DNA from: a virus
Virus record (IMG/VR): IMGVR_UViG_3300032291_002679
Location: 1 to 25,008 of that record
Length of the DNA stretch: 25,008 nucleotides
Direction: 5' to 3' (one strand)
Shown here: positions 1,896 to 23,704 of the stretch, piece after piece
Position numbering within the stretch: position 1 is the first letter of the stretch
Layout of the letters: every line of letters begins with the position of its first letter
Notes under the pieces: model-generated
What the model was told of the DNA's origin: nothing
The model's database searches: none
What the model saw: the letters and a program-made list of their open reading frames with translations, nothing else
Position numbers and translations under genes: made by a program

Positions 1896-4477
1896 TAGTC
1901 TTGATCCTCAATCTCAATACCTACAGGGTTTCCAGTTTCATCGGTAATAATCTTACCTTTGCGCTTACGAGACTTCTTCTTTTCACGCTCGATGATAACT
2001 GGCTTTTCGCTCTGGAACATGATTGATGATGACGGACTTCGCTCAATGGCATCCATCTGCAACCGCACACGCTCGATTTGCTGCTCTGAAGCTAACCGCC
2101 GCTCTTCCATGAGTTTCTCGGATTCGGACAAGCGCATACGCATTTGCTCAAGCTCAAGTTTTTGAATCTCAAGGATTTGAGCCATACGGTTAGTTTCCTG
2201 TTGTATGGCCTGCTTATTAGCGTCGCTAGCTGACATTGCTTGAACTTTAAGCATATCAACCTGAACGGCGCTTTGTTTGACTTGTATCTCTTGCTGTTGC
2301 AAGCCAAGCTCTTGTTGCTTGTAGTACTCGTCAGTTTGCTGTTTCTGTATGTCGAGCTGTGCTGAAAGCTGGTCACGCTGCATTTTAAGCTGTTGGTCTT
2401 GATAAGCGAGCTGGTTCTTAGTCGCCTTATCCTGCATTTCCATCTGCATGACTTGGAGCTTAGCTTGTGACTCAACCTGAGCTATTTGGAGACGCCCTTG
2501 TACCTCAAGCGTTGTAGGGTCCGGCGGCGGCGGTTGCTTAGCAGCTTCTTCCTTAGCTTTCGCAATTTCTCCAACTTGCTGCATAGCTTTTGTGAAAATA
2601 CCATCGAGTTCCTTGCCTCCCTTCATGGTTTTAATCATGTTTTGGAACAAAGAGATACTGAAGTCTAGTAGCGGTGGATACTGGTCTACTAACCCTCTCA
2701 TTTGGTCGAAGAACTGGCCTGCTTGCTGGATCAGCATAGCGCCATCTCTTTGCTGTTGCTGCTGGTCGATAGCAATCATGCTGTCAGTAGCAATTTGGAT
2801 TCGATAGCTGCGCTTTTTGTTGTCACGAAGCAGTCCGATGATCTGCTGCTTCATATCGTCGATAAGTTGCAACGGATCTGGAGCAGGAGGTGGAGGTGGT
2901 GCCATTGGCGGCATCATACCTGTATCACCTGGTGACATACCCTCTGGCCCCATCTCTGGCATTGGAGGTGCTGGTGGAGGTGGTGGGATGTAGATCGTTG
3001 GCTCAATCAGAGCGTCTGCATCACCAATTTCTAAAATTGTTTCTGGCTCAAACTGTTCCGCAATAATCGTGCCAAGATTGCTAATGGCATCCGATATAAA
3101 CTTGCTGAACATATTTTGACGTACAACCAAACCAAGGGATGACCATTGGCTTTCCAATCTGTTTGCGGTGGCAGACTTGTACTGCTCGCTGGTTCCACGA
3201 AGCAAATCAGATACTTTTAAGGTTTCATAAAGCTGCTGCAATGCAGCTCCACGAGCGCCCTGAAGAACGTTAAGAGCGTTTACGAATGGCTCGACTGGGT
3301 AGAACTCTACTCCTGCTTGCAATCCACCACGGCCTTTATAGGACGGCCAGTTAATGATTGGAGTACCCTTTAGGTCGCCTGCAAACAACTGCTCTACAGT
3401 TGGACCCATTGCAGCGTCATAAAGGAAGTTAGTACGGATGGCCTGAGTTACGGCATGAATACGGGTGGTAAGCCGCTCTACCTCAAGGATTTGGTCTCGA
3501 ACGTGAGCGTAGTCAGATACTGGAACAACTGAGTCTGGATCAGTTGATTGGCTGATTACTGAGCAAGGATAGAACCTTTCAAATTTGGTAGGTGGCTCAG
3601 ACGATTCAATGATGGCATTTTCGCCTGTCTTTTGAAGCCAATACACCTTGTTGGTAGCTTCACACCAAATCTCGTGCAGCTCTGCCTTACCCTCGTACTT
3701 ATCCTCTTTACGAGCCAAGTCTTTTTTCATGACTTCTGGGAACGAGTCATAAATAAGGTCATCAGCTACGTCACGACCAAAGAGTTGTTCCGCTTGATCA
3801 CGGTCAAGGAACGCACGGCGGGATTGCCATTCGATTTCATCCTCAGTACGAGCGTCGGAGCAGTTGTAATCGTTGTATTGGATAACGTCTAATACTGCTT
3901 TTTCCTTAATCTTTTTTTCCACCTCAATGGAAGCTATAAGGATGTTGCCTTCACCTGCCTGGAGTATATCTGTGTCACCTGTGTATGGCCGACCGCTACC
4001 GTCAATAAGCTGACCTGACGGGTCTCTAATTACCGCCATTTCCTCTAAAACGGTTTCAAACTTGGCAGCGTATCTTGCCCAAAGAACGCCCTGACCAGTG
4101 AGCAAAAACTGTAATGCTGCGTTATAACCAACCTTATCGAAGTCAAAATGCGTATCCATGACGAACTGTGTGTTTCGTTCAAGGATGACACTGCCAAGCT
4201 CGTATGGGATGCCTCCGGTGCGTTTACGAAGGTTTACTTCCGCTCTCGGGGTAGAAGAGTAATAAGCAGGAAGCAAAGTATTGATACAATACCACCAAAC
4301 ATTAAGTCGTCGCTCAGCATCGTTTAGAATCCCTACTTGTTTTTGAGCGTTATAAACACGGATTGACTCTTCTGATGTTTCAATGAACTTACGACGACGA
4401 GATTCAGATTGAGTGATTTGAGCCTTCCACCAGCGAGGACTATACTTTTGGACGAGAGGCTTAATCTTTACACTCAT
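1895..4477 (-). CDS. Portal protein (podovirus-type, 860 aa, long Q-rich tail)
   Basis: The portal forms the dodecameric ring at the head vertex through which DNA is packaged and ejected. The N-terminal half (residues 1-490) has the look of large podoviral portals, with a conserved region around 40-90 (YNAQKQVGILNDAERRLN, then YYSSTPRAEVNLRKR). Residues 497-534 are a proline/methionine linker of PPP runs. Residues about 540-640 are helical, a second PPPP spacer lies near 649, and residues 656-812 are a glutamine-rich heptad coiled coil. The tail is basic (KKKSRKRK near 833) and then acidic. Its ATG overlaps the terminase stop (ATGA). At 860 residues it is longer than most portals; the extra length is the coiled-coil extension. 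Position directly after terminase supports the call. Confidence 0.9.
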   Translation of the reverse strand: MSVKIKPLVQKYSPRWWKAQITQSESRRRKFIETSEESIRVYNAQKQVGILNDAERRLNVWWYCINTLLPAYYSSTPRAEVNLRKRTGGIPYELGSVILERNTQFVMDTHFDFDKVGYNAALQFLLTGQGVLWARYAAKFETVLEEMAVIRDPSGQLIDGSGRPYTGDTDILQAGEGNILIASIEVEKKIKEKAVLDVIQYNDYNCSDARTEDEIEWQSRRAFLDRDQAEQLFGRDVADDLIYDSFPEVMKKDLARKEDKYEGKAELHEIWCEATNKVYWLQKTGENAIIESSEPPTKFERFYPCSVISQSTDPDSVVPVSDYAHVRDQILEVERLTTRIHAVTQAIRTNFLYDAAMGPTVEQLFAGDLKGTPIINWPSYKGRGGLQAGVEFYPVEPFVNALNVLQGARGAALQQLYETLKVSDLLRGTSEQYKSATANRLESQWSSLGLVVRQNMFSKFISDAISNLGTIIAEQFEPETILEIGDADALIEPTIYIPPPPPAPPMPEMGPEGMSPGDTGMMPPMAPPPPPAPDPLQLIDDMKQQIIGLLRDNKKRSYRIQIATDSMIAIDQQQQQRDGAMLIQQAGQFFDQMRGLVDQYPPLLDFSISLFQNMIKTMKGGKELDGIFTKAMQQVGEIAKAKEEAAKQPPPPDPTTLEVQGRLQIAQVESQAKLQVMQMEMQDKATKNQLAYQDQQLKMQRDQLSAQLDIQKQQTDEYYKQQELGLQQQEIQVKQSAVQVDMLKVQAMSASDANKQAIQQETNRMAQILEIQKLELEQMRMRLSESEKLMEERRLASEQQIERVRLQMDAIERSPSSSIMFQSEKPVIIEREKKKSRKRKGKIITDETGNPVGIEIEDQD

Positions 4478-6765
4478 ATTTTAGCTCGTTTCTGTTGTGA
4501 CCGCATTTGAGCGATATACGCCTGCAACTTAATCTTACCCTTGTTAAAGACCTCTGCTGGTTGTTCCCACTTGGCGTCTACGAGGCGGCCTTTGCAAAGA
4601 TAACGAAGAGCGTCGCAATTACTTACGACTGCCCCATTATATAGCACAAAATTTCCTGTATTTGGCACATTTAGACAATACACTTCTTGCGTGGCTTGGG
4701 GATAAGAGATGGATTCAACCGTTTTCGTCTCGCTGCCATCTTGCAATTTGGATGGCAGTATTGCGACTTCCATTCCATGTGCTTTTTCGTTTGATATTCC
4801 GTTTTGCAAAAAATACACGTTTTTGTAATTAGCGGCATCGATGCTGCTACGTTCTTGGCGTGCTCTGAGTGCCACCGCTTCCCTTCTTCTGTACCATGCC
4901 AGAACTTCGCCATTGGGATGACTCTTTGAACCATGTCGAGTCTTGCTGCTTCCCTGCGTTCCGGCGTCATGTGGTTCGACAAATGAGTCTTGGCATCCAA
5001 CAGTTCCAGGTTTTCTATTTGATTGTTGCTTCGGTTTGCATCCTTGTGGTGAATGTGAAACCCTTTGGGTATTGGACCGTTGAAATGCTGCCAAACAATT
5101 CGATGCAGTCTCTTGGACCCAATTTGAGACTTTCGCTGTGAACTGAAGTAATACCCGCAGCGATAAAACTTTACCCCACCAAATTCCTGACACGTTTCGC
5201 TGATGATTGCCACCCTCATACGTTACGCAACGTATCAGGTCATGTTGGGTTAGACAACGGGCTTCTTTCCAACGACCATCACTCAACATAAACCGATGGT
5301 CAGGAGTGCAGGTAACTTTGGTGCCGTCTGAAAAGCGTAAAGTAATAACTTTGGCGTCGGTTCGAGTAATGGCGCCACGAGCCTCATGATATTGGCCGTC
5401 ACTTGATAAAACGTAAACGCTGGAACCTTTGCAAAGGTGCCTAATTTCTCGCCAGCCTATATTGGTTTTAACAAGGGTATCGCCGCTAAAACAGGCGTGG
5501 TCATTCCCAGTCGAATCAGCATCTTCAGGGTTACGTTTGTCTATTGACAGAGATGGTAGTGTTTCCAGCAAATATGGGCAACTGGCAAATATGTAGAGGA
5601 GCGGTGGGTTAGATACCAGTCGTTGCCGGATTTGTGACCAGCCTGATATGCGCTCGTTGTCTGCCGCTCTAAACGAAGGAAACTTATATTTGGCAAACAC
5701 CTGGGTAAACTGGTCGGCAATGCTTGGACCGCCCTCGTGGTTGAATATGCTGGGGTCGGCAAAGGCTAATGGATTTTCTCCGACAGAAATTGCTCCAATT
5801 CGATTTGCCTGATCAATGTTATCAACTCCTTTTCCCCACATCTCTCGGTATATGACGATGGCTCCTTTTTGGTACGGAACTTCGTTTCCAGCATCATCAC
5901 GACCTGAGCTGACAGCGCCCCAGACAGCAGCAAAAGGAGAGCGGTAACCCCAATCGTACCCCATATAGCGGGGCCAGTGTTTAGGGATATTGAAAGGACT
6001 AATGATATGTTTAGAAGAGAACTCAGGAAAATAGCTGCCTTCATGGATTTCAAAGTCTCCTTCAAGCCATGCACGAACAAGCTCTGGAGAGCCTACCATG
6101 TGCAATCGGTTGATATACTCAGGGTCACGAGCGAGCAGAATCTGGTTATCGTGTACCCTACTTGGAATATAAATGTAGTCAAAGCTACTTCCGTTGGGTA
6201 ACTGTTTTTGTAGGATTTTCATCCCTTTTGGCGCTGGCTTAATAAACAGTTCTTTAAGCCATCCGTGACCTACGCCGCCTGGGTTAAAGGTGAGTATAAC
6301 CTGGCCACCGCCTTTACCTCGTAACGCTCCGAACAACTTCCATATGCAGGAGGGGTCGGAATAGTTACCTGCCTCCTCTATGGCTGCATGGCTTAGGTTT
6401 TGTCCTTGGTATTTCTCCGCATCGCCGTCATTAGCCAACGGACGAAAGCGCAACCTACCCCCATTAGAAAACGTAAACTGCTTCTTTTGGTCCTGCCAGT
6501 GCGCTTGGAGCGGTAAGTAGATTTGCTTAGCTCGCTCGATGAGGTCATCCGCTTGAGGGAGTTCTTTTCGAAAAAATATCGCATTGAAGTCACTGCCGAA
6601 TTGCTCCTGAGCTATGGCAAACTTGCCTAATACGCCGTCAGTTTTACCACCGCCTCGTGCACCGCCGTAGCCTATAAGGGTTATGGGACAATGGATTAGA
6701 GTCTCTTGAGGGCCGGACTGAGGTGCCCATACAACCTGTTCATTGGCTTGTAACTCAGCATCCAT
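4474..6765 (-). CDS. terL: Terminase large subunit, interrupted by an intein (763 aa precursor)
   Basis: The packaging motor ATPase and headful/cohesive-end nuclease. The ATPase domain carries a Walker A-like GGARGGGKTDG at residues 34-44 and a Walker B-type acidic pair in AAIEEAG near 127-133. The RNase H-like nuclease has D271 in YDWGYRS, D337 in AFADPSIF and the third motif DHA/CDALRY. This third motif is split by an intein: DHA ends at residue 424 and CDALRY resumes at 717. Splicing would give a mature protein of about 471 residues, normal for the family. It overlaps the zinc-ribbon gene upstream by 11 bases and the portal start downstream by 4. Assignment is firm; that splicing occurs is inferred from intact junction residues. 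Confidence 0.95.
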   Translation of the reverse strand: MDAELQANEQVVWAPQSGPQETLIHCPITLIGYGGARGGGKTDGVLGKFAIAQEQFGSDFNAIFFRKELPQADDLIERAKQIYLPLQAHWQDQKKQFTFSNGGRLRFRPLANDGDAEKYQGQNLSHAAIEEAGNYSDPSCIWKLFGALRGKGGGQVILTFNPGGVGHGWLKELFIKPAPKGMKILQKQLPNGSSFDYIYIPSRVHDNQILLARDPEYINRLHMVGSPELVRAWLEGDFEIHEGSYFPEFSSKHIISPFNIPKHWPRYMGYDWGYRSPFAAVWGAVSSGRDDAGNEVPYQKGAIVIYREMWGKGVDNIDQANRIGAISVGENPLAFADPSIFNHEGGPSIADQFTQVFAKYKFPSFRAADNERISGWSQIRQRLVSNPPLLYIFASCPYLLETLPSLSIDKRNPEDADSTGNDHACFSGDTLVKTNIGWREIRHLCKGSSVYVLSSDGQYHEARGAITRTDAKVITLRFSDGTKVTCTPDHRFMLSDGRWKEARCLTQHDLIRCVTYEGGNHQRNVSGIWWGKVLSLRVLLQFTAKVSNWVQETASNCLAAFQRSNTQRVSHSPQGCKPKQQSNRKPGTVGCQDSFVEPHDAGTQGSSKTRHGSKSHPNGEVLAWYRRREAVALRARQERSSIDAANYKNVYFLQNGISNEKAHGMEVAILPSKLQDGSETKTVESISYPQATQEVYCLNVPNTGNFVLYNGAVVSNCDALRYLCKGRLVDAKWEQPAEVFNKGKIKLQAYIAQMRSQQKRAKI
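4618..5493 (-). mobile_element. Intein in terminase large subunit (about 292 aa)
   Basis: The protein intron begins at Cys425 of the precursor (CFSGDTLVKT, block A) and ends at Asn716 (GAVVSN), followed by the extein nucleophile Cys717. Block B is TPDHRF at 488-492 plus SDGRWKEA. Blocks F/G are VYCLNVPNTGNFVLYNGAVVSN at about 695-716. The usual penultimate His is Ser here, a substitution that known inteins tolerate. N-terminal and C-terminal splicing parts total about 130 residues, a typical mini-intein. The middle, roughly residues 516-680, has no recognisable protein in this frame; instead that DNA encodes an HNH endonuclease in the +1 frame. The insertion falls in the most conserved part of the terminase nuclease site, as expected for intein homing. 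Confidence 0.9.
4671..5219 (-). CDS. HNH homing endonuclease nested out of frame in the intein, 182 aa
   Basis: This frame is shifted +1 from the terminase/intein frame on the same strand. Residues 38-84 match HNH homing nucleases closely: LHRIVW, NGPIPKGFHIHHKDANR, then NNQIENLELL, with His57/His58 and Asn70 as candidate metal/catalytic residues. An N-terminal GYY element at 22-24 precedes it. A C-terminal zinc knuckle is CIFC at 135-138 and CHPNC at 155-159, likely for DNA binding. The ATG at 5219 is only two codons after an in-frame TAA (5223-5225), so it is a separate gene, not a fused domain. No good ribosome site precedes it. Its last 20 or so codons overlap the true C-terminal splicing segment. 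Probable role: cutting intein-free terminase alleles to spread the element. Confidence 0.88.
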   Translation of the reverse strand: MRVAIISETCQEFGGVKFYRCGYYFSSQRKSQIGSKRLHRIVWQHFNGPIPKGFHIHHKDANRSNNQIENLELLDAKTHLSNHMTPERREAARLDMVQRVIPMAKFWHGTEEGKRWHSEHAKNVAASMPLITKTCIFCKTEYQTKKHMEWKSQYCHPNCKMAARRKRLNPSLIPKPRKKCIV

Positions 6766-12292: not shown

Positions 12293-12460
12293 ATGATTCA
12301 AGAGATTAAACAATTACTTTTCACACCAACTGGCATCGTGGTTTCCATTCTTCATGTTGCCTTTGCCGTTGGCATTGTCACTTGTTGGGTAGGGATTCAG
12401 ACTCAGATTTTAGGGAATGACCCGATCGAGCAGGTTCAATCGTTAGGCAAGCGAAGGTGA
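12293..12460 (+). CDS. Small membrane protein, 55 aa
   Basis: A 55-codon gene (MIQEIKQLLF...SLGKRR) with a hydrophobic span at about residues 13-36 and a soluble tail of roughly 18 residues. It has the leader AAGGGGGATTT. The stop overlaps the GTG of the transglycosylase by 4 bases (GTGA), indicating coupling. It might be the inner-membrane partner of the lipoprotein upstream, as in a spanin pair, but no coiled coil supports this. Confidence 0.65.
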   Translation: MIQEIKQLLFTPTGIVVSILHVAFAVGIVTCWVGIQTQILGNDPIEQVQSLGKRR

Positions 12461-12960
12461 GCCAGGAAAGCAACCGCCCCTCAGATCCTAACTGGGTCTG
12501 GGGGGCTCTTATAATCGCCGTAGCGGCTTGCAAGCTGGATTTACCTCCAAACCTATCCTATCACGCCACCCGATTCTTTGGACTCAATAGCGGCCATTCT
12601 AAGGCCGTTATACGTCAAGAGGTGAGCAGGGCGGCAGATGCCTATGGGTTAGATCGGAACGTGTATCACGCCGTGGTACAGGTTGAGAGTGGCGGGAACG
12701 TGAAAGCTGAGAGTCATGTAGGTGCTCGGGGCTTGTCTCAGGTTATGCCGTATAACGCTAAACGGTGTGGGTGGCACCCAGATCGCTTGTGGGACCCAAC
12801 TCACAACGTTCGGTGTGGCGCTCGCATATTGTCCGAGGAGTTGGAACGGACCGGAAATATCCGTGACGCTCTCACAGTGTACAACTGCGGCAAAATTAAC
12901 TGTAAGGAGGGTAAAGAATACGCTAGAAAAGTGCTTTCGCTGTCTAAAAAATTAGGCTAG
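12457..12960 (+). CDS. Lytic transglycosylase (SLT/lysozyme-like), 167 aa
   Basis: Cleaves peptidoglycan glycan strands in the periplasm. The catalytic motif VQVESGGN includes Glu77, followed by the SLT signature GARGLSQVMPYNAKRCG and later TVYNCGK. Cysteines at CGW, RCG, NCGKINC suggest disulfides. Residues about 15-30 are hydrophobic (WGALIIAVAACKLDL), probably a signal anchor. The start is GTG, overlapping the membrane protein stop. Placement in the early operon, far from the holin and DUF5675 genes, suggests a role in entry, exclusion or an early cell-wall step rather than simple lysis, but that is inference. Confidence 0.85.
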   Translation: MSQESNRPSDPNWVWGALIIAVAACKLDLPPNLSYHATRFFGLNSGHSKAVIRQEVSRAADAYGLDRNVYHAVVQVESGGNVKAESHVGARGLSQVMPYNAKRCGWHPDRLWDPTHNVRCGARILSEELERTGNIRDALTVYNCGKINCKEGKEYARKVLSLSKKLG

Positions 12961-15899: not shown

Positions 15900-16062
15900 A
15901 CTATTTAAAGACCAGATGTGGCGCAAGTTGGAAGCACAGCATAAAGCGTCTGTAGAGCGAGGCAAGATAAACCCAGCCACTATAAGTCAGGACGCTGCAA
16001 TCATACGTTGGAGCAGTGAGGCATTGACCCAAGAGCGGCTAAACAAGGAGACAAAGAAATGA
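15880..16062 (+). CDS. Hypothetical small helical protein, 60 aa
   Basis: Mostly helical and basic (LFKDQMWRKLEAQHKASVER) with a second helix DAAIIRWSSEALTQERLN. The ATG at 15880 follows GAGG; a GTG one codon earlier is also possible. ATGA overlap with the next gene. Function unknown. Confidence 0.6.
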   Translation: MIKPVNELFKDQMWRKLEAQHKASVERGKINPATISQDAAIIRWSSEALTQERLNKETKK

Positions 16063-16667
16063 ACGCTGACATGCCCCCACTCAAGGTTTGGATTAAACGA
16101 GAGTACCTTACAAACGGTGAGGAGTCAGGCTTTGAGGAGGGGGTAGCGTTTGCGGTTCAGTCCATGAAAGGGCGAGCACTGCACTTTCACGTTCTACTCC
16201 GTTCGGGGGCTCACTTTCGTCATGTTCCGCTTCATTGGTTGTGTCACAATGCTCCTACGGTTGTTGGTGAGCGGTCCCTTGAGGATTTACAGCTTTGGGA
16301 CTGCTTTAGCTACAAGCCGGTTGTTACCGTGTTTGACCTGCTTAGAGACTACCAATGCGAGGCGGTGCTCCGTGACAAAACTAAGTTTAACGCCACTTAT
16401 TATTGCACAGTGGATTGGCTTCCTGATTGTGATGCTAAGTCTGGCTGGTTGTTACATCCCGACCAAAATAAATGCGCCCATATACTTCTGTTGGAAAACG
16501 GACAAATTGGATGCCTGCCAACCAATCGAGTCCTTTTTAAAGACGGATTCTTTATCGGAAACGTTCCAGACGCTGCCACCCGCAACTATAAAACCGTGGA
16601 CGTGGTTTTCACCGCCGAAACTTGTGACCGATGGTCAGTAGCTGACAAAGAGGAGACTTACTACTAA
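16059..16667 (+). CDS. Conserved phage hypothetical protein, 202 aa
   Basis: Preceded by CAAGGAGACAAAGAA. It contains VWIKREYLTNGEESG, GRALHFHVLLRSGAHFRHVPLHWL, LEDLQLWDCFSY, HPDQNKCAHILLLENGQIGCLPTNR and CDRWSV. The LQLWDCFS and PxNR elements occur in uncharacterised phage proteins found near recombination and DNA-metabolism genes. The sequence looks beta-rich with many aromatic residues. Its stop overlaps the nuclease start (TAATG). Function unknown. Confidence 0.75.
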   Translation: MNADMPPLKVWIKREYLTNGEESGFEEGVAFAVQSMKGRALHFHVLLRSGAHFRHVPLHWLCHNAPTVVGERSLEDLQLWDCFSYKPVVTVFDLLRDYQCEAVLRDKTKFNATYYCTVDWLPDCDAKSGWLLHPDQNKCAHILLLENGQIGCLPTNRVLFKDGFFIGNVPDAATRNYKTVDVVFTAETCDRWSVADKEETYY

Positions 16668-19993: not shown

Positions 19994-22900
19994 CTAAACT
20001 AAACTCAAAACTTTATCGACGTACTCTCGTGTTTCTTTTGGAACCTTAACGTAAGCCTTTATATTGGCCCAGGTTGGACGTTTACCCTCTGCCCTTACCT
20101 TAGCCATGACTCGCTTAATGTTGTTAGGTCCCCAGTTATAAGCGGCCAACGCAAGGCTTTCATCGCCAAACTCAATAAGCTGCTGCTGAAGGTAACGACT
20201 GCCACCCTCAACGTTTTGCTTGGGGTCTTTAGCATCCACGCCAAGGTCACGAGCTGTAGCTGGCATAAGCTGCATCAACCCACGAGCACCCTTGCTGCTG
20301 ACCGCTTCTTGCTTACCGCCTGACTCAACCTGCATAACGGCCTTAACCAACGATGCAGGTGCGTACTGCTTGCCAGTAGGAATGCTTATGTTTTGTTTGC
20401 CAACCTTAACTTCTTGTTTCGGAAGCATTTGCCGTAACGACTCCAGCTCTGCCTCAAGGTCAGCAATCTCTGTATCCTCTGTAGGTGTAGCAGTAGGTGA
20501 TACAGGTGCTTGTTCTCCTGCTTGTTGCGCTCCTCGTGCGCCAAAGTATCCAGACTGAATTAACTTATTTTTTACCCTTTCTGGTAAAATTGCTAACTCC
20601 TCTGGAGTCATTTTAGCCAGAGCTTGCGGGTTTTCTTTAAGCAATCGTTCGTATGCCATGTCCGCTGGTTCAGCTATCTTCGGATTAAGAATAGCTAATT
20701 GTGGCCCACCAAATTCAGTAGAAAATGGCGTAGCTCGCAACTCGATATTTTCAGCTAAATCAAATAGTCGTTTTTCAATACTGCTCTTATCTGCCTCAAC
20801 TATTCCTTTGCCTGTTTTCTCAGCATATCGTTGTGCAGCTTTGCTAGCTTGTTTGCCAGCAAATGTTTTTATTTTCTCTTTAAGCCAGGTTTGATTTTCC
20901 CTAATGTTGATTGCATCTACTCCAGCTTTTATTAAATCATTCTTTACTTTCGATGCAGCTTTAAGCGATTCAGGCGCATCCGCTTCAAAGTATAATTTTG
21001 CCGCAAGCTCATCGCCAGTCATACCAATTTTCTTGGCGATATTATCAAAATCTTTATATGTATCTACATTTACAATGTTAGCTTCAGGCTTAAGATAAAC
21101 TGGCATTTGCTTATCTAATGACCACATTCTTCCTTCGGCAGCTTTCTTAGGATCAAACCACCAAGTATTTCTTTCTGCGGCATAAATCGTGCCTGGTCCC
21201 AAAACGGAATATCTAATTGTTTTAGGAATAAATCCACCATAGCCTTTAATTGCTTTCAATCCAGCTTCATCAGTTCCATGCACAAATGGTTGTGAAGCGC
21301 CAAACTCTTCTTTGCTTAAGTATCCAAGGCGTGACGCTTGTTCAAAGAACGATTCAACGTTTTTAACTGTAGGTGGAGCGGCGGCAAACTTAATAAGCTC
21401 AGGCTTAGAAAGCATCTGATTGATAGCAGCGTTTAATTGCTCTTCAACAGCGGCAGCTTTTTTACCTACCCGTAAAGCCGTTACCTCACCAAGAACGCCT
21501 CCAACAGCGGCGCCAAGAATACCACCCGATCCAGCACCGCCAACGATACTTCCTACAATACCAGCTACATATTTGCTATTTTGTGCAGCTCTTAATAAAG
21601 CTCGTTTGTTAAATATGGTGCCGAGTGTGGTTTGAGCTTGAGCTGTAATAGACTGCTTGCCAGTGGCTTGTTGCTTTAAACGCTCAGGTAACGCTGCACC
21701 TTCAATGTCAGTAATAACCTTTTCAAGCTGGTCGTAGTCACCTTTAAATATAGTTTTGGCTACATCACGCTGAGAGGCTAAACGATCTGCTATAGTGCCT
21801 CTGCCTGTTTGCAAACTCTCAATAAACTTGCCACGAGTAAGATCCTCAAGCTGCGTGCCTTCTACGTCTTTCATGAAACGACGTGCTTTGCCAAGGTCGC
21901 TAAAGATTTGACTTGGAATCTGTCCCTCTGAAACCTTAGCAAACTCAGACAACTGTCCAGGCTCAAGCGTTGCTTTGAGTGTTTGCTCTGCGTTTTCAAT
22001 AGACGGCCAGAAGTTTGCTTCGGACAATGCTGGTCTATTCTTGGTTATCCAAGCAAGTTTCTTTTCTGCTGTTGGCAGATTCATAAACTCGCTTAGCTTC
22101 TGTGTTTCAATTTGCTGCGCTCCTACACCAGCTTTCTTTAACGCTCCAATAGAAGCTGATTCACTGGAAAGGAATGGCACTACCTTTTCTGGCGATTTTT
22201 TAAGAGCTTGTTTAAGCGGTGATATAACCCCACGTTCTCGGTCGTAAACAAACGTATCAAAGTAGTTTTTCCACTTATCCTTAGCAGCGAACAAAGCGTC
22301 AGAGCCTGGAGCATTTTCCATGACGCTTTCAATGTATTTGTAAAGATTAAGAGCTAACGCTTGGCTTGGAGTGCGTTCACCTTGCTTAGTTGATGACAAC
22401 ACCTTGCCAAGTTGTACTTGAATATCGTGCAGTTCTCCAATCTTCACCGCAGGAACAAAGCCTTCCGGCAAATCCTCCTTTGGCATATCTAACTTACGTA
22501 AGCGTTTTATTTGAGACAAAACTGTAGCGTCGCCAATTCGTTGTGAAGGGTCTCGTTTCCAACCTCGTACAATGCGATTGACGTCCTGTTTAATGTTTGG
22601 AACGTCCACCACTACATTGTAAACGGCAGGGTCTTTGAACGCAGAACGCCCAGCTTCTTTAGCGTCTTTAGCTGCTGTTTTAATTTGACTAATAACTTCC
22701 GTCCCAAGTGACTGCACAAGTCTGCTTGGCTCTTCCATTGCCGCTGGATTGCGAGAAGCTAAATCAAGGTCGATGCCTTTGATTGCTTCGTCTGCTTTAA
22801 GTACGCCTTGCTGAGCAGCTACAGTTCGCAATGCTTCCGAAAGCTGTCCTTTCTGCGGTTGAGTTCCAAGTGCCCCAAACGCTAATGCTTGCTCTTCCTT

Positions 22901-23704
22901 ACGCTTTGCCAACGCATCGAGCAATGTTTGGCCACCCATTTCTGGTTTGCTCATTGCGTATTGATAAGTAGCCAATGAAGGTGTTTGTGCTATTTCAGCA
23001 GCCGTCATTGGAACGCCAAGAGGACTCATAAGCGGAGTGCCTAACTCTTGCGCTATTGCAATACGGGCAGCTCCTTCAGGTCCAGCTCTGTCAAGAATTT
23101 CTTGTACTGCTGCGTTTTGAATTGCAGTTTCATCACCACGCAACAACGCTCTTGGTTCATCTAAAGTTGAGATTGCTCTGCGACCCAAGCCAACAGCACC
23201 TTGAGCTGTCAGCGGTGCAGCAAGTGCTCCAAGAATAGCTCCACCTGTACCACCAATCGTTGCTTCGCCTAATTCACTACCACCATAAGCCGCTAACCCT
23301 AAGCCAGCTTCTTTTAAAGGACGAGCAACGGACATTAGCGCTTCTGCCTTACCGGCAGGCACAGGAGCCATAAAGCTAAGAGCGGTTTCCAATCCAGACA
23401 AACCTTGTCGTTCTCGCTCTGCTGCGTATAAATCTTTAAGTGCGTTTACCTTCGCAAGTTCTTGACTGTAGTAGTCTTGTGGCTCAGCACCCGTAGCCAG
23501 TCCATAAAGATCACGACCAATAGCAGGAACCGCAGCAATGCCTTTGCTAAGTTGGCCAAAAGTAAGGATGTCACCAAGGTTAAGCAAGCCGCCAGTAGCA
23601 ACGGCAGGTCTCATATCTGGTGTTGCCGTCGGAGTTGCAGGAGCATTTACAGCAGCTCGCAACTGCGCCAGTTCTGCTTCTAATGCCTGTAACTCTTCAT
23701 CCAT
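19994..23704 (-). CDS. Internal virion protein with PARP/ART-like and lytic transglycosylase domains, 1236 aa
   Basis: Residues 1-30: short coiled coil, then TPTATP linker. Residues 134-174 and 712-744 are glycine-zipper hydrophobic segments (VGSIVGGAGSGGILGAAVGG) that could enter membranes during ejection. Residues about 806-1015 read as an ADP-ribosyltransferase-like fold: FVHGT (H809), GTIYAAERNTWWF (Y841), PVYLKPEANIVN, GVDAINI, GPQLAILNP (Q1002). Residues 1068-1097 repeat the linker/coiled coil. Residues 1112-1236 are a transglycosylase: AVMQVESGGK (Glu1127), GARGLMQLMPATA, AAYNWGPNN. Such large proteins are injected with the genome to breach peptidoglycan. TAATG overlap with the gene before it. 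Confidence 0.88.
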   Translation of the reverse strand: MDEELQALEAELAQLRAAVNAPATPTATPDMRPAVATGGLLNLGDILTFGQLSKGIAAVPAIGRDLYGLATGAEPQDYYSQELAKVNALKDLYAAERERQGLSGLETALSFMAPVPAGKAEALMSVARPLKEAGLGLAAYGGSELGEATIGGTGGAILGALAAPLTAQGAVGLGRRAISTLDEPRALLRGDETAIQNAAVQEILDRAGPEGAARIAIAQELGTPLMSPLGVPMTAAEIAQTPSLATYQYAMSKPEMGGQTLLDALAKRKEEQALAFGALGTQPQKGQLSEALRTVAAQQGVLKADEAIKGIDLDLASRNPAAMEEPSRLVQSLGTEVISQIKTAAKDAKEAGRSAFKDPAVYNVVVDVPNIKQDVNRIVRGWKRDPSQRIGDATVLSQIKRLRKLDMPKEDLPEGFVPAVKIGELHDIQVQLGKVLSSTKQGERTPSQALALNLYKYIESVMENAPGSDALFAAKDKWKNYFDTFVYDRERGVISPLKQALKKSPEKVVPFLSSESASIGALKKAGVGAQQIETQKLSEFMNLPTAEKKLAWITKNRPALSEANFWPSIENAEQTLKATLEPGQLSEFAKVSEGQIPSQIFSDLGKARRFMKDVEGTQLEDLTRGKFIESLQTGRGTIADRLASQRDVAKTIFKGDYDQLEKVITDIEGAALPERLKQQATGKQSITAQAQTTLGTIFNKRALLRAAQNSKYVAGIVGSIVGGAGSGGILGAAVGGVLGEVTALRVGKKAAAVEEQLNAAINQMLSKPELIKFAAAPPTVKNVESFFEQASRLGYLSKEEFGASQPFVHGTDEAGLKAIKGYGGFIPKTIRYSVLGPGTIYAAERNTWWFDPKKAAEGRMWSLDKQMPVYLKPEANIVNVDTYKDFDNIAKKIGMTGDELAAKLYFEADAPESLKAASKVKNDLIKAGVDAINIRENQTWLKEKIKTFAGKQASKAAQRYAEKTGKGIVEADKSSIEKRLFDLAENIELRATPFSTEFGGPQLAILNPKIAEPADMAYERLLKENPQALAKMTPEELAILPERVKNKLIQSGYFGARGAQQAGEQAPVSPTATPTEDTEIADLEAELESLRQMLPKQEVKVGKQNISIPTGKQYAPASLVKAVMQVESGGKQEAVSSKGARGLMQLMPATARDLGVDAKDPKQNVEGGSRYLQQQLIEFGDESLALAAYNWGPNNIKRVMAKVRAEGKRPTWANIKAYVKVPKETREYVDKVLSLV
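20660..21289 (-). other. PARP/ART-like domain region within the virion protein
   Basis: Covers residues 806-1015 of the 1236-residue protein. The order His-Gly-Thr, Gly-x-Ile-Tyr-Ala-Ala, a vYLK strand, a GxDA strand and a final Q-L-A-I-x-N-P-x-I strand matches H-Y-[E/Q] ADP-ribosyltransferases in outline. An insertion of about 120 residues separates the later elements. Seen from motif order only, so the enzyme call is tentative. Confidence 0.5.

Follow-up and report, generated by a model that had tools for sequence, protein, structure and literature searches.

The window analysed here, the whole stretch of 25,008 nucleotides at positions 1 to 25,008 of the IMG/VR virus record IMGVR_UViG_3300032291_002679, carries on its minus strand a gene for the large terminase subunit (terL) that is interrupted by an in-frame intein. 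Within this intein, in the +1 frame relative to terL, lies a second gene that encodes an HNH endonuclease. The two genes and their parts are arranged as follows, with the evidence for each in brackets.

4474–6765, minus strand: terL with its in-frame intein, an uninterrupted open reading frame (ORF) for a 763-residue precursor (phrog_2, a terminase PHROG, E=1.6e-38; Intein_splicing PF14890, E=4.1e-12)
5494–6765, minus strand: TerL N-extein, residues 1–424, ending ...DSTGNDHA (ungapped match to the intein-less TerL of the relative L145)
4618–5493, minus strand: intein of 292 residues (precursor residues 425–716), CFSGDTLV...VVSN, followed by the +1 Cys of the C-extein (NCBIfam profiles; exact insert relative to empty alleles)
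5212–5493, minus strand: N-terminal Hint half, intein residues 1–94, with blocks A and B and the motif TPDH (AlphaFold AF2 predicted local distance difference test, pLDDT, of 81–93 at residues 1–90; fold match to inteins)
4735–5211, minus strand: host-frame linker, intein residues 95–253, that is, the HNH gene translated in the terL frame (AF2 pLDDT <50 throughout; ratio of nonsynonymous to synonymous change, dN/dS, of ~1.6 in the host frame)
4618–4734, minus strand: C-terminal Hint half, intein residues 254–292, with blocks F and G, EVYCLNVP...VVSN (AF2 pLDDT ~90)
4474–4617, minus strand: TerL C-extein, CDALRYLCKGRL... (match to intein-less TerL; co-conversion-like patch relative to L145 in the first 20 nucleotides)
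4671–5219, minus strand: HNH endonuclease gene, 182 residues, ATG start, +1 frame relative to terL (Pfam HNH_3, E=3.9e-18; phrog_15471, an HNH PHROG, E=1e-28)
4989–5111, minus strand: HNH core, residues 37–77, RLHR...HIHHKD...NNQIENL (the stretch matched by Pfam; H39, H58, N66 and N70 invariant in 32 relatives)
4743–4817, minus strand: zinc knuckle of the HNH protein, Cys135, Cys138, Cys155 and Cys159 (invariant in 32 relatives)
5218–5238, minus strand: HNH start region within the intein, seven host codons with lowered host-synonymous diversity (ATA and TGC invariant)
4671–4742, minus strand: doubly constrained overlap of the HNH tail with intein block F (HNH-frame pS, the proportion of synonymous differences, and host-synonymous diversity)

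Both ends of the intein are fixed by NCBIfam profiles. The intein_Nterm model (TIGR01445) places its position 1 at precursor residue 425 and spans residues 425–493 with 32.0 bits (cut-off 24.5), and intein_Cterm (TIGR01443) matches over its full length at residues 694–717 with 18.8 bits (cut-off 15.6), its end falling at the splice junction. The coordinates 4618–5493, given for a 292-codon intein by an earlier sequence-only reading of the window, are therefore exact, and the terL frame, described there as open across the HNH overlap, indeed runs through all 763 codons without a break. The insertion point is the nuclease motif of TerL (DHA/CDALRY), and the predicted removal of the intein leaves a 471-residue TerL that has 100% amino acid identity to that of L145 over all 471 residues. 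The catalytic residues C1, T63 and H66 are invariant in 19 relatives and, like N292 and the +1 Cys, are kept across the clade. In the AF2 model, confident Hint strands at residues 1–94 and 254–292 enclose the HNH overlap (residues 95–253), where pLDDT falls below 50, and Foldseek matches this model to the SspDnaB, NpuDnaB and NpuDnaE inteins with a probability of 1.00.

The 182-codon HNH nuclease with its core and zinc knuckle, also recognized in the sequence-only reading, is borne out by the HNH_3 match and by the invariant core and cysteine residues. It had been assigned to the middle of the intein; it is nested inside the intein, but its last codons also overprint block F (VYCL). The AF2 model of the HNH protein has a mean pLDDT of 90.5, with low values solely in the overprinted tail, and the homing endonuclease I-HmuI is its only solved relative in the PDB, by sequence and by fold. 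Upstream, a TAA that ends three bases before the ATG closes the HNH frame, and the encoded protein begins with MRVAIIS. In the start region the host-synonymous difference fraction is 0.23, as compared with 0.31–0.59 upstream and elsewhere. Such low diversity immediately before the HNH start suggests a start signal at the nucleotide level, despite the lack of a Shine-Dalgarno match.

The number of stop codons expected in the frames overlapping the HNH gene was estimated by shuffling synonymous codons within each HNH gene, so that the protein and its codon usage were kept. In the window, the terL frame contains 0 stops over the HNH gene as against 6.7 expected (0 of 2000 shuffles), whereas the third frame contains 7, for the same expectation of 6.7. 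The chance of 1 in 2,700 that had been put forward from the letters for such an open frame was thus a conservative figure. Among relatives with the same layout, host-frame stops number 0 against 307.6 expected in the window register (35 non-redundant sequences) and 0 against 106.3 in the other register (50 non-redundant sequences), or 0 against ~414 for the 85 host frames pooled; these zeros arise partly by construction, since the classes were assigned by which frame lacks stops. Independent support for the classes comes from the intein blocks found on both sides in nearly all host frames and from the absence of depletion in non-nested sequences, as the 23 split or freestanding sequences have stops at expectation in both frames. 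The unused third frames contain 353 stops against 311 expected in the window register and 793 against 808 in the other. The shuffles, together with the third-frame and the split and freestanding controls, rule out an accidental open frame.

Selection differs between the two frames. Over the same bases, the 19 members of the window's clade that align without gaps give a dN/dS of ~0.1 in the HNH frame and ~1.6 in the host frame, a comparison that the sequence-only reading had itself proposed. The HNH gene is maintained as a protein under purifying selection, and the intein frame over the overlap needs little beyond freedom from stops, except where the HNH tail overprints block F. There, at HNH codons 160–182, HNH-frame pS falls to 0.13–0.46, and host-synonymous diversity is 0.03–0.16 before the HNH stop and 0.48–0.61 after it, with the jump exactly at the stop codon.

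This nested layout is widespread among relatives, which we gathered by searching phage records and viral contigs for the HNH and reading all frames around the matches. The layout counts rest on motif reading at both ends, by eye for most, although not all, loci. HNH genes in alternative frames, which had been suggested as worth seeking in other TerL inteins, are nested at ~108 of the 131 viral loci among these relatives, in two frame registers, a share that is no rate for inteins generally because the survey began from the window's HNH family. The terL frame is open in the window register at ~50 viral loci, and the host frame is open in the opposite register at ~55. A split layout occurs at ~15 viral loci and in Vibrio phage 1.245.O: terL ends in an N-intein where the HNH gene begins, and a separate gene for the C-intein and C-extein starts from or near the HNH stop. 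Of 20 loci first sorted as freestanding, ~15 proved to be split inteins when both sides were read. A few HNH relatives are freestanding, either directly downstream of terL or elsewhere. An HNH in the intein frame was searched for and found in none of the 131 viral relatives; in the nine cases in which the HNH frame extends far in the 5' direction, the extension contains neither a TerL nor a Hint domain. A frameshift joining the two frames, which the earlier reading had named along with in-frame relatives as a possible sign of misassembly, was not seen either; an assembly frameshift is ruled out by the recurrence of the same two frames in dozens of independent contigs. The HNH gene occurs inside inteins at several TerL positions. 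The nested layout is also present in the complete public genomes of Rhodobacteraceae phage LS06-2018-MD07, Tetrasphaera phage TJE1 and Acinetobacter phage Highwayman, where only terL is annotated, and further nested loci were found in prokaryote assemblies. Two loci were left out, L137, a GC-rich locus in which an open frame is expected, and L142, which has no intein.

Several individual loci present variations of their own. In L132 (HNH match at 637–1125) and L133 (3501–3989), the nested HNH intein lies near the ATPase motifs of TerL rather than the nuclease motif, before CQHEKDVFNWL...FLVIEQAEQ. Vibrio phage 1.245.O (L006, 146–3022 and 3557–3874) has two TerL inteins, a first one near the TerL N-terminus that is LAGLIDADG-like in appearance and a second, split one whose halves flank an unannotated HNH gene. 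TerL also appears to hold two inteins in the 1076-residue host ORF of L140, where the intein at the ATPase motif may hide a second out-of-frame gene in its middle, a low-complexity stretch rich in Lys, Ser and Arg. In L080 and L232, which derive from the same 4955-base contig (7–519), a stop interrupts the HNH frame but not the terL/intein frame, which is open; the HNH gene is probably decaying there within a still intact intein. Finally, a nested HNH gene in a Spirochaetaceae assembly (L250, 70–354) is followed by a C-intein-like part that ends in HN before the C-terminus of a DNA methylase (TQKPRILYDKIL...), on a contig cut at its 5' end. This suggests that nested HNH inteins occur in methylases too.

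The element is polymorphic among close relatives. Among 80 close TerL relatives, the insert is absent from 75, measures 873–876 nucleotides in four and lacks the HNH gene in one, L156. The terL gene of L145 is empty, with a zero-length insert and 97.8% nucleotide identity to the window exteins. In L156, a near-identical phage, the window's insertion site is occupied by a mini-intein of 408 nucleotides (136 residues); its 3' flank is the same as in the window and the intein ends are almost the same, but the middle is different. Translated in the HNH frame, DNA retained in L156 gives MAARRKRLNPSPIPKPRKKCIV*; the simplest account of this allele is therefore that it descends from a form with the HNH gene and has lost that gene, and the different middle means that recombination is also possible. 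The window and L145 differ at five positions in the first 20 nucleotides 3' of the insert and at none in the next ~100, a clustering with a probability of ~3 in 100,000 by our binomial estimate. This patch looks like a short co-conversion tract.

The HNH tree does not separate nested forms of the two registers, split forms and freestanding forms from one another (label changes on the best tree: at least 15, 7, 4 and 6), and the well-supported branches force fewer changes. Freestanding homologues start at the same place and with the same residues as the nested ones, for example MRVKVIS in Ec1-ASingh, directly after terL. Collaborative homing by freestanding endonucleases has been proposed for introns (discussed in PMC10448857), and the present family is similar in that an HNH gene beside the invaded gene is a possible ancestor. 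The simplest account is that mini-inteins of terL repeatedly captured an HNH gene located next to terL, and that overprinting or splitting followed. The sequence-only reading had considered either a mobile class in its own right or the capture of an HNH gene by a mini-intein, and both possibilities fit the recurrence at ~108 of 131 loci, the mini-intein of L156 and the freestanding HNH genes beside terL.

We therefore interpret the window element as a mobile, bicistronic intein built from two overlapping genes, a reading to which we give a probability of roughly 0.82. The Hint domain encoded in the terL frame, predicted to be splicing-competent, would excise itself from TerL after translation, and the ~160 codons read through the HNH gene would form a disposable, unstructured linker at the usual site of an in-frame endonuclease domain. 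The +1 frame would yield an I-HmuI-like homing endonuclease from its own ATG on the same mRNA. The target of this enzyme is probably terL without an intein, cut at the codons of the nuclease motif or close to them, and repair of the cut gene would copy the whole intein with a short flank. The ancestor of the HNH gene was most likely a freestanding neighbour of terL that entered a mini-intein; later, terL-frame stops would have been purged in some lineages, giving nested genes, and in others the intein would have split around the HNH gene, the direction from nested to split being our inference. It is tempting to go further and to suggest that bicistronic inteins are a distinct and common mobile class in tailed phages, that mini-inteins are invaded time and again by freestanding HNH genes, in one or the other alternative frame, and then accommodate them by purging of stops (overprinting) or by a break into two trans-splicing genes, and that nesting is a natural route to split inteins. 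For this wider proposal we see even odds.

Four observations weigh against our interpretation. A Shine-Dalgarno sequence was looked for at the window HNH start and gave no match, although most split and freestanding relatives have one. We identified no recognition site for the HNH protein. The co-conversion patch consists of five mismatches in one pair of sequences and is weak on its own. Support is weak at the deep forks of the HNH tree that bear on the number of independent nestings, of which there is no reliable count because only some branches are well supported.

An alternative in which the intein splices is that the nested HNH protein assists the terminase in packaging, as does the HNH protein beside the HK97 terminase, and is kept in terL for its work with TerL. 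Packaging HNH proteins beside terminases are known (discussed in PMC10448857), and freestanding members of the present family adjoin terL. However, 75 of the 80 close TerL relatives lack both intein and HNH, and the phage therefore does not need the latter. The sole solved relative is a homing enzyme, and the HNH gene lies inside inteins at several TerL positions. We consider a packaging role unlikely. An equally small share of probability goes to production of the HNH protein as a fusion with the N-intein by ribosomal frameshifting instead of from its own ATG. The missing Shine-Dalgarno match in the window and the lowered synonymous diversity just upstream of the ATG would fit such a mechanism. 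Nevertheless, the TAA ending three bases before this ATG leaves almost no room for it, and the two opposite registers would require a +1 shift in one and a –1 shift in the other. Moreover, a strong Shine-Dalgarno precedes the HNH ATG in several nested relatives (AAGGAGGT in L042, GGAGG in L003), and the freestanding homologues share the same start.

It is less probable still that the intein is dead, TerL being either non-functional or active in its unspliced form. An unstructured linker of 160 residues could hinder folding, but the whole clade conserves C1, T63, H66, N292 and the +1 Cys, and the frame is kept open in every relative; as the intein interrupts the nuclease motif of TerL, the unspliced protein should also be inactive. 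A group I intron inside the intein, removing the HNH segment at the RNA level and leaving the open frame to accident, would recall the nested out-of-frame endonuclease genes that are usual in such introns, but we reject it as close to negligible, since there is no Rfam match anywhere in the window, nor in the region at E up to 1, and the 0 stops against ~414 expected in 85 relatives would be unexplained.

Elsewhere in the window, a lytic transglycosylase-like domain lies at the C-terminus of a 1236-residue virion protein (19994–23704), and a separate one is present in a 167-residue protein (12457–12960). A 202-residue protein (16059–16667) matches a phage ferredoxin PHROG (E=2.7e-40), and its gene is overlapped in another frame by an ORF of 139 residues (16222–16641).

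The nearest literature that we found consists of the paper on the ShiLan domain and a genome announcement citing an out-of-frame HNH. The ShiLan domain (2025) and the insertion in Pacc40 gp60 are cases of phage DNA methylases with a hidden out-of-frame HNH (PMC11855218). They resemble the window element in the out-of-frame HNH, the host frame that stays open through the insert, the sporadic distribution and the lack of a clear ribosome-binding site, and the Pacc40 case also shares freestanding homologues nearby. They differ in having no Hint or splicing domain, and their insert is predicted to stay in the methylase (PMC11855218). In contrast, the window element is a complete intein with the HNH at the canonical endonuclease position, lies in an essential gene and has counterparts in many lineages. 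The view of the sequence-only reading that inteins carry endonucleases only in frame and that out-of-frame HNH genes are an intron trait thus needs qualification: methylase insertions of the ShiLan type are also out of frame, although they lack a splicing domain. In the dCTP deaminase intein of cyanophage CL131, Hint halves flank an HNH_3 domain, and splicing was shown in Escherichia coli (PMC6293099). There, Hint and HNH_3 belong to the product of one ORF, whereas the window encodes its HNH in an ORF of its own, in a different frame. Group I introns with a nested HNH gene of the I-HmuI type likewise carry it out of frame within a splicing element; removal of the window element is predicted at the protein and not the RNA level, and its host frame must therefore stay open.

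The fractured genes of Dassa et al. (in 2009) reportedly are split inteins in which an endonuclease gene separates the two halves, the endonuclease belonging to another (Vsr-like) family. The same order of N-intein, endonuclease gene and C-intein is found in split relatives of the window (L018, L037, L058, L128 and others), and the window differs in its continuous host frame and contiguous intein within a single 763-residue ORF. Our literature search found no contiguous intein with an out-of-frame endonuclease, although its coverage was incomplete and an earlier report is possible.

In textbook inteins, the endonuclease is a domain of the spliced protein. Encoded instead by a separate gene in another frame, the endonuclease is uncoupled from the splicing activity and escapes annotation. 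The nested loci provide a natural case of long same-strand overlapping genes in which constraint can be measured in both frames, and, together with the split ones, a set of natural TerL inteins in contiguous and split form that protein engineering could draw on. One gene family is found in four states, freestanding, nested in two registers and split, and the origins of mobile and split inteins are therefore directly testable.
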